Positions 29,572-33,101 of a stretch of DNA of 33,101 nt are shown here, piece by piece. The DNA comes from Rhodospirillales bacterium. Lineage in GTDB: Bacteria > Pseudomonadota > Alphaproteobacteria > Rhodospirillales > Defluviicoccaceae. The stretch is taken from positions 1 to 33,101 of the forward strand of contig REEP01000026.1 of assembly GCA_007695045.1 (NCBI GenBank), in the 5' to 3' direction. Position 1 is the first letter of the stretch; every line of letters begins with the position of its first letter. The position numbers were made by a program, and so were the translations under genes. The notes below the pieces were generated by a model. It was not told the origin of the DNA. It did not search any database and saw nothing but the letters and a program-made list of their open reading frames with translations.

Positions 29572-29733
29572 GGTTGCGACCGCTTTCGGGCGCCGCGATC
29601 CGGCGGCGTTCCATGGAGGAAGCAGGAGCGACGGGCTCGCTCTCCGGCTTGGCCGCAATGCCGTTGATGGGCCCTGTTGATCCAACGTCGGCGGAGCCTG
29701 ATGCCGTCGCCTGCATCAAAAACCTGACACAAG

Positions 29734-29759
29734 AAAAGGCGGCTCCCGCGGGAGCCGCC
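29734..29759 (-). terminator. Rho-independent terminator of dodecin copy 1
   Basis: A perfect 22-bp palindrome (29738-29759, starting GGCGGCTCCC) is followed on the minus strand by TTTTCTTGT. It lies 45 bases after the dodecin stop and looks like a strong intrinsic terminator. A second hairpin, GGGTGA (29774-29779) pairing with TCACCC (29789-29794), lies between it and the stop. Both hairpins recur at the second copy. Confidence 0.85.
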
Positions 29760-29875
29760 CTTGGTCTCGGGGCGGGTGAACGAGTCGCTCACCCCCTCAG
29801 GCGATCAAGCGCCGTGTTTTTCCGGATGATAGCGGAACGAGGCGTGCACGCGCGCACGATACTCCGACACCTTCT
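29738..29875. repeat. direct repeat, left copy (dodecin 3' end plus terminator)
   Basis: These 138 bases align without gaps to 32964-33101 with 6 mismatches, in the same orientation, and the match runs off the window edge. Copies are 3226 bp apart. The match starts sharply at the terminator palindrome; the sequence on the outer side differs apart from a run of A. The three coding mismatches are all at third codon positions. Confidence 0.92.
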
Positions 29876-30023
29876 TCCCCTCCATTCTCATGTCGAGGAG
29901 CTCCACCTCGGCAACCCGCAGGTCCTCCAGGTGTTCGGCCGCGGTCTCGACGGCATTCTTGGCGGCTTCCTCCCAGGAGGTCTGGCTGCTGCCGATGATG
30001 CGGATGACGCGATAGGTGGACAT
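29805..30023 (-). CDS. Dodecin, copy 1
   Basis: The 72-residue dodecin starts MSTYRVIRIIGSSQTSWEEAAKNAV and continues TAAEHLEDLRVAEVELLDMRMEGKKVSEYRARVHASFRYH. Dodecins form hollow 12-mers that bind and buffer flavin. The Trp that stacks on flavin in the archaeal and mycobacterial proteins is Val37 here, as in the common EDLRVAEV proteobacterial type, so ligand use may differ. ATG 30023 has GAGGGGAG 7 bases upstream. The longer open frame to 30131 is not used. A second copy with identical visible C-terminus lies at the right edge. Confidence 0.93.
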   Translation of the reverse strand: MSTYRVIRIIGSSQTSWEEAAKNAVETAAEHLEDLRVAEVELLDMRMEGKKVSEYRARVHASFRYHPEKHGA

Positions 30024-30404
30024 GGCATTTCTCCCCTCGCTTGGTTCCACGTGGCCTTCGCTGCGGCCACGCCTGCCACCGCCGCTGCTGGCCCCCACAC
30101 GGATCCCTGGCCGAACCGAAAGCCGCGGCATCAGAGTTCCCCACCAAACCCCTTGCCAAAAGCCGCAAAGCCGATATCACATTTTCAGCCGCGATCCCGG
30201 TGAAACTGCGCGCCCTCATGCGCTTCCGTTCCGCTCAAGCCGCCCTAACACCCAATCCGCAGCCCGTTCGTTAAGAAGGCCGGCTAAGCGTCGGCAAGGA
30301 CCTGCCTTCGCGCAACGAAATCTTGGCGCCGCAACCTTACATTCGCCCACTTCACACTCTACGTCACATTGTGTACCATAACCAAAATAGTTTCAGGGGA
30401 GATC
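30024..30404. other. intergenic region upstream of dodecin and the three-gene cassette
   Basis: The 381 bases between divergent dodecin and the TIGR04255-like gene hold no supported gene. The left part is GC-rich like the chromosome, the right part more AT-rich. A candidate cassette promoter lies at 30351-30379. The left boundary of the inserted DNA is probably here, but no terminal repeat or integrase remnant was found. Confidence 0.5.
30351..30379 (+). promoter_or_regulatory. candidate promoter of the three-gene cassette
   Basis: TTCACA (30351-30356; 5 of 6 to the -35 consensus) and TACCAT (30374-30379; 4 of 6 to the -10) are spaced by 17 bases, ending 25 bases before ATG 30405. A small palindrome, CACA-T-TGTG (30365-30373), sits in the spacer and could be an operator, perhaps for the HTH protein of the operon. 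Binding is speculative. Confidence 0.45.
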
Positions 30405-31220
30405 ATGGCTGACAGGATCGACGATCCGCTCCGAGGGCAGCCACCCGGTCGGGTGCAGCTTGCCGATGCACCTTTGATCCGTGTCCTGGCCCAAGTTCAG
30501 TTCGCGAAGGTTATGAAAATCGCGTCCGAGCAGCATATCGGGGACTTTCAGGAGGCAGTTCGCAAAGACTTTCCCTATATCGAAAGGGATGTTGCGCAGT
30601 CGATCCGGCTGGATTTCGACGGACCCGATGTACGGGGTGCAAAGACCGAGGAGATGATCTGGCGCCTGTTCGATACAACCAAGCAATGGCGGGTATCGCT
30701 CAACACGTCGGCGCTGACTCTTGAGACCTTCCGGTACACCTCACGACAAAAGTTTCTTGATCGATTCAGATTCCTAATAAGCGCGCTGGCCGTTAAGATT
30801 CAGCCCACCATCGCGACTCGCGTCGGTTTTCGGTACGTGAACCGGCTTGACCAGCCGCAGGACATTCTCGATTTGGAGAAACTGGTCTACTCCGACCTTG
30901 TCGGGCTGCTGTCTGCACCACTACGCGATAAAGTCGAGTTGACCATCTCGCAGGCGCAATGTGAGACCCGCGAGGGTCGCCTTCTGGTGCGGTGGGGGCT
31001 GCTGCCGGCTGGTGCCACGCACGACCCTGATATGGCACCACCCGTCAATGCCCGCAGCTGGATGCTGGACATCGACTCGTTCACGACGAATGAACTTGCG
31101 AGTGATGAATTCCACCCAGATGAACTCATCGGCAAGGTCGACATGATGGCGAACCGCGCTTATGCGTTCTTCCGGTGGAGCGTGACACCAGAGTTCCTGA
31201 CAAGGTTCGGGGGAGCGTAA
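30405..31220 (+). CDS. TIGR04255-like protein (first gene of the cassette)
   Basis: The 271-residue protein resembles TIGR04255 proteins, a widespread family of unknown function. It has an N-terminal LADAPLIRVLAQVQF segment, WRVSLNTSALTLETFRYTSRQKFLDRFRFLISAL in the middle, TRVGFRYVNRLDQP, and a C-terminal AYAFFRWSVTPEFLTRFGG. These are the family's recurring elements. It is predicted soluble. ATG 30405 has AGGGGAG 3 to 5 bases upstream; a start at 30369 is less likely. It is followed after one base by the HTH gene, with a GGGGGAG ribosome site inside its 3' end, so the pair is translationally linked. The biochemical role is not known. Confidence 0.75.
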   Translation: MADRIDDPLRGQPPGRVQLADAPLIRVLAQVQFAKVMKIASEQHIGDFQEAVRKDFPYIERDVAQSIRLDFDGPDVRGAKTEEMIWRLFDTTKQWRVSLNTSALTLETFRYTSRQKFLDRFRFLISALAVKIQPTIATRVGFRYVNRLDQPQDILDLEKLVYSDLVGLLSAPLRDKVELTISQAQCETREGRLLVRWGLLPAGATHDPDMAPPVNARSWMLDIDSFTTNELASDEFHPDELIGKVDMMANRAYAFFRWSVTPEFLTRFGGA

Positions 31221-31221
31221 T

Positions 31222-31950
31222 ATGATGCAACACACATTTGGCGCCGATCCTCTTTATCCGGCCCCTGCGACGGGCAGCGCTTTCGAAAAATGGAAGCAAG
31301 CATCGCGATACGACACGTTCACGCGTTTTATCGGGAGCATGACGTCGACTCACACCTCATCTCGAGAAGAGATAAGTATTTTTCCTGATTTTGCGGCGGA
31401 CAGAAAATTTTTAAATGTCTTTGATGGAGGCACCAGCAGCGGATTCCATTTGTCGTGCTTTATAAACCAGCCAGAGGGGGACTGGTCCGGGATCCAGCTT
31501 GTCCGTGAGCTCCGGCAACTTTCTGGCCTCACTTGGTATCAGATGGCGGATCTACTCTGCGTAAAGCCTCGAACGCTTCACAACTGGGCCGCAGGTCACG
31601 TGATCGCCGAGAAGAACCGCCGGCGACTCGGTGAGCTGTTGGCCGTTTTGCGCCACATCGACAGGGGCTATGCCCAAGCGAATCGTAATTTGATGCTGAA
31701 CACCTCGGTCGCCGGACGCACGCTTTTCCTACTCCTGCGGGATGGTGAATTCGACCTGGTGAAGGAACAAGCCGGCCGCGGTCCCGGCCGCACCGGGTCG
31801 CCCGCCGCGCTCCCACTGGCGACAGTGAACACCTGGGGGCCCGAGCACTTTGGCATGGCACTTCTGGCGTCTCTCCATGATCAGGATGATGAAGTTGTTC
31901 CGGTCACATCGACCGGCAAGCGTCCTGCGAATGCGCGCAGGAAGGGCTAG
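31222..31950 (+). CDS. HTH (XRE-like) domain protein, second gene of the cassette
   Basis: The 242-residue protein has a helix-turn-helix at about residues 91-125 (IQLVRELRQLSGLTWYQMADLLCVKPRTLHNWAAG), followed by a helix with EKNRRRLGELLAVLRHIDRGYAQANRNLML. The N-terminal 80 residues and the C-terminal 80 match nothing I recognise. The DNA around 31370-31430 is markedly AT-rich. ATG 31222 (or 31225) has GGGGGAG about 6 bases upstream and lies one base after the TIGR04255-like stop. It may regulate the operon or act as an antitoxin-like partner; neither can be shown here. Confidence 0.75.
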   Translation: MMQHTFGADPLYPAPATGSAFEKWKQASRYDTFTRFIGSMTSTHTSSREEISIFPDFAADRKFLNVFDGGTSSGFHLSCFINQPEGDWSGIQLVRELRQLSGLTWYQMADLLCVKPRTLHNWAAGHVIAEKNRRRLGELLAVLRHIDRGYAQANRNLMLNTSVAGRTLFLLLRDGEFDLVKEQAGRGPGRTGSPAALPLATVNTWGPEHFGMALLASLHDQDDEVVPVTSTGKRPANARRKG

Positions 31951-31961
31951 AAGGTGCGGAC

Positions 31962-32816
31962 TTGGCCGAGGATGACAATAGAGCCGTGTCCACCCCGCAC
32001 ATCGAATGGCGGCAAGGCGACTTCGCGTTAGGTGTCGGCTCTTTTCTATTCGGAGATATCCCGGAAGTCGGCGACATTGGGGGCATTGGGGCGTTCTTCG
32101 AAGGGCGGGATCCGGCCGGTTTCGCTGTGGTCTCTCAGACCTGTGACATTGTGAGCGATCCAGTAAAATATGCCACGGTAGCAGTTTGCCCGCTTGTCGA
32201 CGTCGATTCAAAGCGAATCGGGGAGGTCGCGCGTGGTCACGTCCCTCGTTTGGGATTTATCGAAAACGCGCCGCAAGGCTTGGTAGCGGACATCGCGCGG
32301 CCAATGGCGATCAGCAAGCAACTTCTCTCGACCTGGAAGCGCGTCAAGGGTTTCACCGATGAAGCCAAGGCGCGCGCATTCGCACAAAGTCTCGAGCGGG
32401 TTTTTGGTCGCTTTGCATTTCCAAATGCATTCAATAACTCGATACGACCACTCGATAAAAAAATTAAATCAAAGTATGGAAAACCGAATTCGCCTTTGGG
32501 CAAGGCAGTAAATTCATTGGTAGAAATTCGCGTACGGCCCTCTGCTTCTTGGGACTCTGTAGCAGTACGGGTTCAATTTCTCCTGATATTTGACGCTGAC
32601 GAAAAGAGACTTGTCGATCCGTTAGCAATTAAGGAGGCTTTTGAGACGGAACTAGAAAAAATGCAATGGCAGGGTGGCTTTGGCATCGAAGATCCGCCTG
32701 TGCGCATTGGGAGTTACGATGATTTTCTGGCTCGCGATTATGTCGAAAGTGTACCTCTCGACGTAAACGCACTGTCATTCGCGGCACGTTATGCGAACAA
32801 TGACGAAGACGGCTGA
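31962..32816 (+). CDS. Unknown protein with SQTCD motif (third gene of the cassette)
   Basis: The 284-residue protein starts from TTG 31962, which has AAGG 7 bases upstream; the gap from the HTH gene is 11 bases. It has an early IEWRQGDFALGVGSFLFGDIP, then GFAVVSQTCDIVSDPVKYATVAVCPLVD (SQTCD at residues 58-62), a helical middle region (AKARAFAQSLERVFGRFAFPNAFNN), and VAVRVQFLLIFDADEKRLVDP near the C-terminus. The conserved-looking Cys-Asp could be functional but no enzyme family is recognised. It lacks membrane segments. The 3' half is much more AT-rich than the chromosome here. Function unknown. Confidence 0.65.
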   Translation: MAEDDNRAVSTPHIEWRQGDFALGVGSFLFGDIPEVGDIGGIGAFFEGRDPAGFAVVSQTCDIVSDPVKYATVAVCPLVDVDSKRIGEVARGHVPRLGFIENAPQGLVADIARPMAISKQLLSTWKRVKGFTDEAKARAFAQSLERVFGRFAFPNAFNNSIRPLDKKIKSKYGKPNSPLGKAVNSLVEIRVRPSASWDSVAVRVQFLLIFDADEKRLVDPLAIKEAFETELEKMQWQGGFGIEDPPVRIGSYDDFLARDYVESVPLDVNALSFAARYANNDEDG

Positions 32817-32956
32817 CCGAGACCTTGCAAAAACTATTTAGTTTCCCGTATTGTATTGGCTGGCACATTGACCGGGAATGATTTCACGAAATCAGCCTCG
32901 CCCTTTTCGGGCTTGACGTCACTGGGGATGCAGGTCGGTGACAATCCTCCCTATAT

Positions 32957-32985
32957 TAAAAAAGGCGGCTCCCGCGGGAGCCGCC
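32957..32985 (-). terminator. Rho-independent terminator of dodecin copy 2
   Basis: The same 22-bp palindrome as at 29738-29759 (here 32964-32985) is followed on the minus strand by seven T residues and AATATAG. It is the stronger of the two copies and lies 45 bases after the stop of the second dodecin gene. The AT-rich end of the cassette (32817-32956) holds no supported gene. Confidence 0.88.
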
Positions 32986-33101
32986 CTTGGTCTCGGAGCG
33001 GGTGAACGGGTTGCTCACCCCCTCAGGCGATCAAGCGCCATGCTTCTCCGGATGATAGCGGAACGAGGCGTGCACGCGCGCACGATACTCCGACACCTTC
33101 T
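32964..33101. repeat. direct repeat, right copy (dodecin 3' end plus terminator)
   Basis: This copy aligns without gaps to 29738-29875, with 6 mismatches over 138 bases, and continues beyond the window. It carries both hairpins and the end of a second dodecin gene. See the left copy for details. Confidence 0.92.
33031..33101 (-). CDS. Dodecin, copy 2, C-terminal fragment
   Basis: The last 22 complete codons before TGA (33031-33033) encode KVSEYRARVHASFRYHPEKHGA, identical to copy 1. The three base differences in the coding part are synonymous (His CAT/CAC, Lys AAG/AAA, Glu GAG/GAA). The start lies outside the window. The pattern suggests both genes are under selection to encode the same protein. 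Confidence 0.88.
   Translation of the reverse strand, partial: KVSEYRARVHASFRYHPEKHGA

Follow-up and report, generated by a model that had tools for sequence, protein, structure and literature searches.

What do three closely packed genes near the end of a draft contig from a Rhodospirillales bacterium do, and do they belong together at all? The window, that is, the whole stretch of 33,101 nucleotides analysed here, is the entire contig C17 of a draft genome, and the three genes lie on its forward strand: P1 (30405..31220), encoding a TIGR04255 family protein of 271 aa; P2 (31222..31950), encoding an antitoxin-like Xre-type HTH protein of 242 aa; and P3 (31962..32816, with a TTG start), encoding a predicted toxin-fold protein of 284 aa with a C-terminal domain. 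The original prediction, made from the letters alone, had proposed an undescribed system expressed as a single transcription unit, with gaps of 1 and 11 bases and an atypical base composition. The same ORF positions and gaps were returned by an ORF check, and the GC content of positions 30405-32816 (0.554) indeed departs from the rest of the contig (0.630-0.700 in 137 segments of 2400 b over positions 1-29733). A ribosome-binding-like AGGGGAG (30395..30401, forward strand), identified from sequence, precedes the ATG of P1. The promoter candidate at 30351-30379 is weak evidence alone because three such candidates were found in 29700-33101 against 1.4 expected by chance. The trio is flanked by a direct repeat, the left copy of which (29734..30039) holds a terminator-like hairpin and a whole dodecin gene, while the right copy (32960..33101) is cut by the contig end and, over the 142 bases aligned, differs at 6. 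The final 55 bases of the left repeat copy recur at the start of contig C33 in this genome, from which a join between C17 and C33 is inferred to be likely. An empty insertion site was sought in a sister genome, where the match falls at a contig end and is uninformative either way.

The proposal of a three-gene system would have been refuted had the genes rarely co-occurred elsewhere, or had one of them matched a housekeeping metabolic family. Neither proved to be the case: no housekeeping family gave a score above its cut-off for any of the three window proteins, and P1, P2 and P3 were found on one strand and in the same order at 55 of the 59 loci encoding P3, using profiles built in this analysis, which also supports the claim of a single unit. 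The trio is a real, widely spread three-gene unit with near-obligate linkage and order, present in four phyla (Pseudomonadota, Cyanobacteriota, Actinomycetota, and Deinococcota). The four remaining loci comprise one at a contig end (L025), one with P2 and P3 and no P1 (L027), one decayed (L028), and one partial match (L071). By source, 16 of the 59 loci are from plasmids, 32 from viral contigs (31 with the full trio), and 11 from genomes; as 48 of them stem from plasmid and viral collections chosen for the search, this split indicates no measured preference, and some near-duplicates are included. Grouped at 50% identity, the 47 P1 rows form 26 clusters, so the distribution of the trio is not that of one recent spread.

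The first genome scan located the trio in Phaeovulum, Tabrizicola, and another member of the window's order. The plasmid copies are from Rhizobium, Sinorhizobium, Sphingomonas, Mesorhizobium, Robbsia, Pseudomonas, Klebsiella, Acinetobacter, and Vibrio, and also from Chroococcidiopsis, Gloeocapsa, Kocuria, Paenarthrobacter, and Meiothermus. With the window's genome counted, P3 is rare in the order (2 of 297 genomes, single-protein query), the class (3 of 385), and the phylum (4 of 398, three of these matches being weak). The Klebsiella trio DNA found no match in a collection of 5,426 E. coli genomes with a query that detects only about 65% identity or more; phage records contained two matches for Klebsiella P3 and none for the window's P3.

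The first protein had been likened to TIGR04255, and this is firmly supported, P1 matching the NCBIfam model at 135.8 bits (cut-off 30; E 2.2e-39) over profile positions 2-252 of 252. It also matches PHROG 35157, of unknown function, and its best viral model match carries no name. P23, G141, and R143 are invariant in all 47 rows, and D222 and D224 are kept in 46 of them. The structure model of P1 is good (pLDDT 89.8, pTM 0.86). Guanidino-kinase, TBP, and AdoMetDC arrangements were considered for it by fold and, at Z of 8.3 or less, point to a common arrangement and to no family, and are not decisive. The P1 profile had no match among PDB sequences, and a search of viral contigs for TIGR04255 with the window's P1 returned none.

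Among 240 genomes of the class, TIGR04255 was matched 21 times in 17 genomes. When the next two ORFs were read by eye, only 4 of the 21 proved to be the trio, 1 was the locus L134, 13 had a different pair of small proteins next to them, and 3 fitted neither pattern. The linkage of the trio thus holds when viewed from P3, while TIGR04255 is not exclusive to it. TIGR04255 is accordingly a first gene common to operons whose partner pairs differ. At L134 (746-1372), a P3-like protein with LTQDCD (HMM E 2.8e-5) follows TIGR04255 directly, with no HTH gene between. At L130, L132, L133, L135-L141, and L144-L146, TIGR04255 leads another operon with two small uncharacterised proteins. Five of these sister operons (L135, L136, L141, L144, and L146) were scanned against PADLOC and Pfam. 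L141 and L144 have middle proteins that match PDC-M32A in its C-terminal part (at 1.2e-8 and 9.1e-8, respectively); the corresponding match is weak for L135 (0.0016), and for L136 and L146 the PADLOC scan gave none. Among the five third proteins, only that of L135 matches PADLOC (AbiEii, 1.4e-4); the TIGR04255 proteins of four operons were without a PADLOC match and that of L136 reached only E 0.028, and none of the ten partner proteins matched Pfam. PDC-M32 has been reported as a PADLOC call in Sinorhizobium prophages (PMC12429752).

Upstream of P1 lies a candidate operator, TTCACA CTCTAC GTCACA (30351..30368, forward strand), made of two TTNACA-like half-sites at a 12-base period with one mismatch. 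When the promoters at L003, at L004, and in the window are aligned, they show CTTCACACTCTACTTCACA, of which the window's copy bears one mismatch, and repeats of the same period are also evident in the Rhizobium and Chroococcidiopsis promoters. Upstream of P1, an exact copy of the pattern TTNACA-N6-TTNACA is present at 28 of the 45 loci, and at 38 if one mismatch is allowed, as opposed to 0 and 7 of 830 random windows from the same loci; other half-site spacings gave 0-1 exact sites and up to 8 within one mismatch. When one locus was counted per 50% cluster (25 clusters), the figures were 10.6 and 18.0, with other spacings at no more than 1.0 and 3.5. This pattern was derived from the same 45 upstream regions in which it was counted. 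A test free of any pattern, which counted direct repeats with at least 8 of 10 positions matching, gave 27 of the 45 regions for the 12-base period and 6 at most for every other period from 8 to 20; in 200 rounds of shuffling, the count averaged 1.7 and never exceeded 6. The promoter repeat is conserved and goes with the HTH gene, being found in none of 16 TIGR04255 operons without one; P2 is therefore its likely reader, an inference for which there are no binding data. TTNACA is similar to a -35 hexamer, yet of the 28 exact sites, 24 are on the opposite strand. The window's operator is the sole site there with at most one mismatch, and it overlaps the promoter-like -35. An inverted-repeat operator upstream of P1 was also considered and discarded, since none was common by eye to the five usable regions. 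No site of the direct-repeat kind is found near L027, the locus with P2 and P3 alone. When viral contigs were probed with the operator, the trio was near none of the 15 matches of one probe; with the other, it was near 7 of 15 (five of them known contigs) and absent from 8, the new trios being L168 and L176, whose mutual similarity was not compared. A conserved candidate operator is as expected if P2 autoregulates the operon, although binding by P2 has not been shown.

The HTH read in the second protein is confirmed, though HTH_3 scores just under the Pfam cut-off (22.2 versus 23 bits). In Pfam, neither PF20432 nor PF09722 was listed for the window's P2 at E up to 1, and PF20432 was listed below its cut-off for 4 of 6 relatives scanned. 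P2 is nevertheless profile-related to antitoxins. An hhalign comparison of 42 P2 rows with 20 Xre/MbcA/ParS members collected by PF09722 gave a probability of 96.8% (E 2.4e-10), with approximately residues 88-180 (31483..31761, forward strand) aligning with the HTH and the C-terminal toxin-binding (DUF2384-like) part of these antitoxins. Taken by halves, the HTH reached 94% and the C-terminal half 67%, as compared with 0.1-0.2% for mismatched halves, and none of 100 column-shuffled controls scored as high for the whole or for either half. Given that the Pfam antitoxin models were not reached, P2 is best called antitoxin-like and not a member of a filed family. Its gene directly precedes the toxin-like gene P3.

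The third protein had been left unrecognised apart from its VVSQTCDIV segment, and family searches leave it so: matches to Pfam (E 0.08 and 0.1), NCBIfam (0.22), and PHROGs (0.036 and 0.15) are at chance level, PADLOC has no match, and among PDB sequences the single sequence found two chance-level matches (E 0.049 and 0.92) and the profile none at E up to 10. A RES identity was rejected, as no RES match was found in Pfam at E up to 1. The order of its motifs (QGD; VVS; V-x-V-x-P; D-x-x-R-x-x-[TIV]-x-K) led a MazF-like barrel to be expected. An AlphaFold2 model of middling quality (27 rows; mean pLDDT 78, pTM 0.58) had S. aureus MazF (4mzt) as its top Foldseek match (E 8.2e-4, probability 1.00, TM 0.62 by target), and among the 50 matches listed, 47 were MazF-type or titled toxin or RNase and 3 were unrelated. 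With VIA, 49 of the 50 matches listed were MazF-, Kid-, or CcdB-type by title (a few as toxin or endoribonuclease only), the best having a Z of 9.4 at 2.8 A over 105 residues and covering residues 11-152. The model thus predicts a MazF/Kid/CcdB toxin fold for the N-terminal domain (residues 11-152; 31992..32417, forward strand). For the C-terminal domain (153-271) there was no convincing fold match, the sole one listed being a nucleotidyltransferase at Z 7.2.

By sequence, P3 is not a MazF family member. PF02452 in Pfam gave no match at E up to 1, and hhalign against the MazF profile a probability of only 4-8%; the N-terminal domain scored 20.6 against 24 PF02452 members, where 100 shuffles reached 13.2 at most. 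Q18, G19, and C61 are invariant in all 48 rows, with D62 kept in 46 and R150 in 47, so that the conserved residues read QG, [HQ]-x-C-D, K, and R; the C61-D62 codons of the SQTCD motif lie at 32142..32147 (forward strand). The residues that we take to be catalytic in MazF were not seen in P3 by eye, which suggests their loss, and we know of no invariant Cys or QG motif of this kind in MazF. Variants of P3 in which the motif Asp is replaced and the Cys kept are found at L026 (6080-7075, QTCN) and L036 (6438-7253, QSCT). MazF and CcdB have one common fold and target RNA and gyrase, respectively (PMC7180214); the fold of P3, accordingly, does not reveal its target.

We hold it to be slightly better than an even chance that the trio is a tripartite, autoregulated toxin-antitoxin-like module on mobile elements, which, judged by its parts, works in the manner of a type II toxin-antitoxin system to which a third partner has been added. 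P2 would be an Xre/MbcA/ParS-like antitoxin-repressor, inferred to bind TTNACA-N6-TTNACA in the operon promoter and, together with P3, to shut the operon down. P3 would be the toxin, with a MazF/CcdB-fold N-terminal domain, conserved residues of its own, and a C-terminal extension; both its toxicity and its neutralisation are inferred. P1 may be the third partner that senses the trigger, or holds or presents the toxin, a role likewise inferred, and phage infection would be the likeliest trigger. An anti-phage role is plausible by inference, and what the module protects might be the host cell or the mobile DNA that the cell carries. The likeness to toxin-antitoxin modules, earlier drawn from the tight operon, its composition, and its accessory location, has gained support from the predicted fold of P3, the profile alignment of P2, and the conserved operator. 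Several points go against this reading: no Pfam antitoxin or PemK model was reached, L027 and L134 each lack one partner gene, P3 is far longer than MazF, and its hhalign probability with MazF is low.

A module of the same kind could be purely selfish, an addiction unit that keeps its plasmid or prophage and has no dedicated anti-phage role, which we consider unlikely. The trio does reside on 16 plasmid records, 11 of them typed as conjugative or mobilizable, and on viral contigs, with the caveat that these shares are not evidence of enrichment, those being the collections searched; other copies, however, are on genome contigs of unknown replicon type, integrated prophages are generally less in need of addiction than plasmids, and the sister TIGR04255 operons share a domain with the PADLOC candidate PDC-M32A. 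Harder to accept, and in our view improbable, is that P3 only borrows the MazF/CcdB barrel and is, within a three-protein complex that includes P1, an enzyme without toxicity or a subunit that binds nucleic acid, P2 being simply a repressor. Its unfamiliar Cys and QG motifs, the missing PF02452 match, and the long C-terminal domain would suit such a protein, as would the conserved Arg and Asp residues of P1, which resemble a ligand site, whereas the alignment of P2 extends to the toxin-binding part of the antitoxins and is not confined to the HTH. Beyond the tripartite toxin-antitoxin-like module preferred here, it can be proposed, as a speculation that we ourselves regard as doubtful, that TIGR04255 serves a modular bacterial immune platform as its common sensor or toxin-handling subunit, with one conserved first protein and swappable two-gene effector cassettes; one cassette would pair an antitoxin-repressor with a re-tooled MazF/CcdB-fold toxin with a Cys-Asp centre, and others would be PDC-M32-like.

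PADLOC-DB 2.0.0 has no family that any protein of the window's trio matches at E up to 1, and eight proteins of related loci gave weak matches only (RmrA at 0.0014 and mad1 at 0.025 for the HTH protein of L027; also capH at 0.038 and JetA at 0.016). By eye and without a family search, the copies at L003 and L031 adjoin serine recombinases and phage repressors, and that at L030 follows lysis genes; accessory slots of such a kind often hold defence and superinfection genes. As to proximity to known defence genes, a check suggested with the original prediction, 7 of 16 annotated plasmid loci (L009, L012, L034, L035, L036, L038, and L039) have a restriction, toxin-antitoxin, or similar neighbour by product name, and little weight is placed on this count because it has no control.

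The sequence and partner criteria of MazEF and Xre-RES exclude the trio from both. It resembles the Xre-RES type II modules (MbcA/ParS/Xre) in having an HTH with a C-terminal antitoxin-like part, encoded directly upstream of a toxin-like gene, and promoter repeats, and it differs in that P3 is no RES protein and a third gene, TIGR04255, leads the operon. P. putida Xre-RES represses its own promoter, and its operator is an imperfect inverted repeat (PMC12204516), unlike the 12-base direct repeat of the trio. With MazEF, Kid-Kis, and CcdAB it shares the predicted fold of P3 residues 11-152, whereas P3 has no sequence-family match, 284 aa as opposed to about 110, a C-terminal domain, and an invariant Cys in [HQ]-x-C-D, and the antitoxin-like partner is of a different kind. 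PADLOC PDC-M32 is approached through the sister TIGR04255 operons, some middle proteins of which match the C-terminal part of PDC-M32A, but the trio proteins scanned match no PDC-M32 model.

The trio is apparently undescribed, inasmuch as no paper for TIGR04255 or SQTCD was found in open-access full text, most subscription journals being outside that scope. If the proposed reading is true, TIGR04255, a family so far named only as sporadically distributed (sporadTIGR04255), would gain constant partners together with a predicted operator, and a further toxin-antitoxin-like system, made of three proteins and having a novel toxin centre, would be known from four phyla or more. Thanks to the operator and the invariant Cys, a single round of cloning would suffice to test the model directly. 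Two different trios were seen in one genome, G360 (L023, 2760-5677, and L024, 1-1822, the latter cut by a contig end), and the window's own genome has, on contig C105, a decayed second P3 gene (L028, 6354-6887) that by eye adjoins pilus assembly-like genes.
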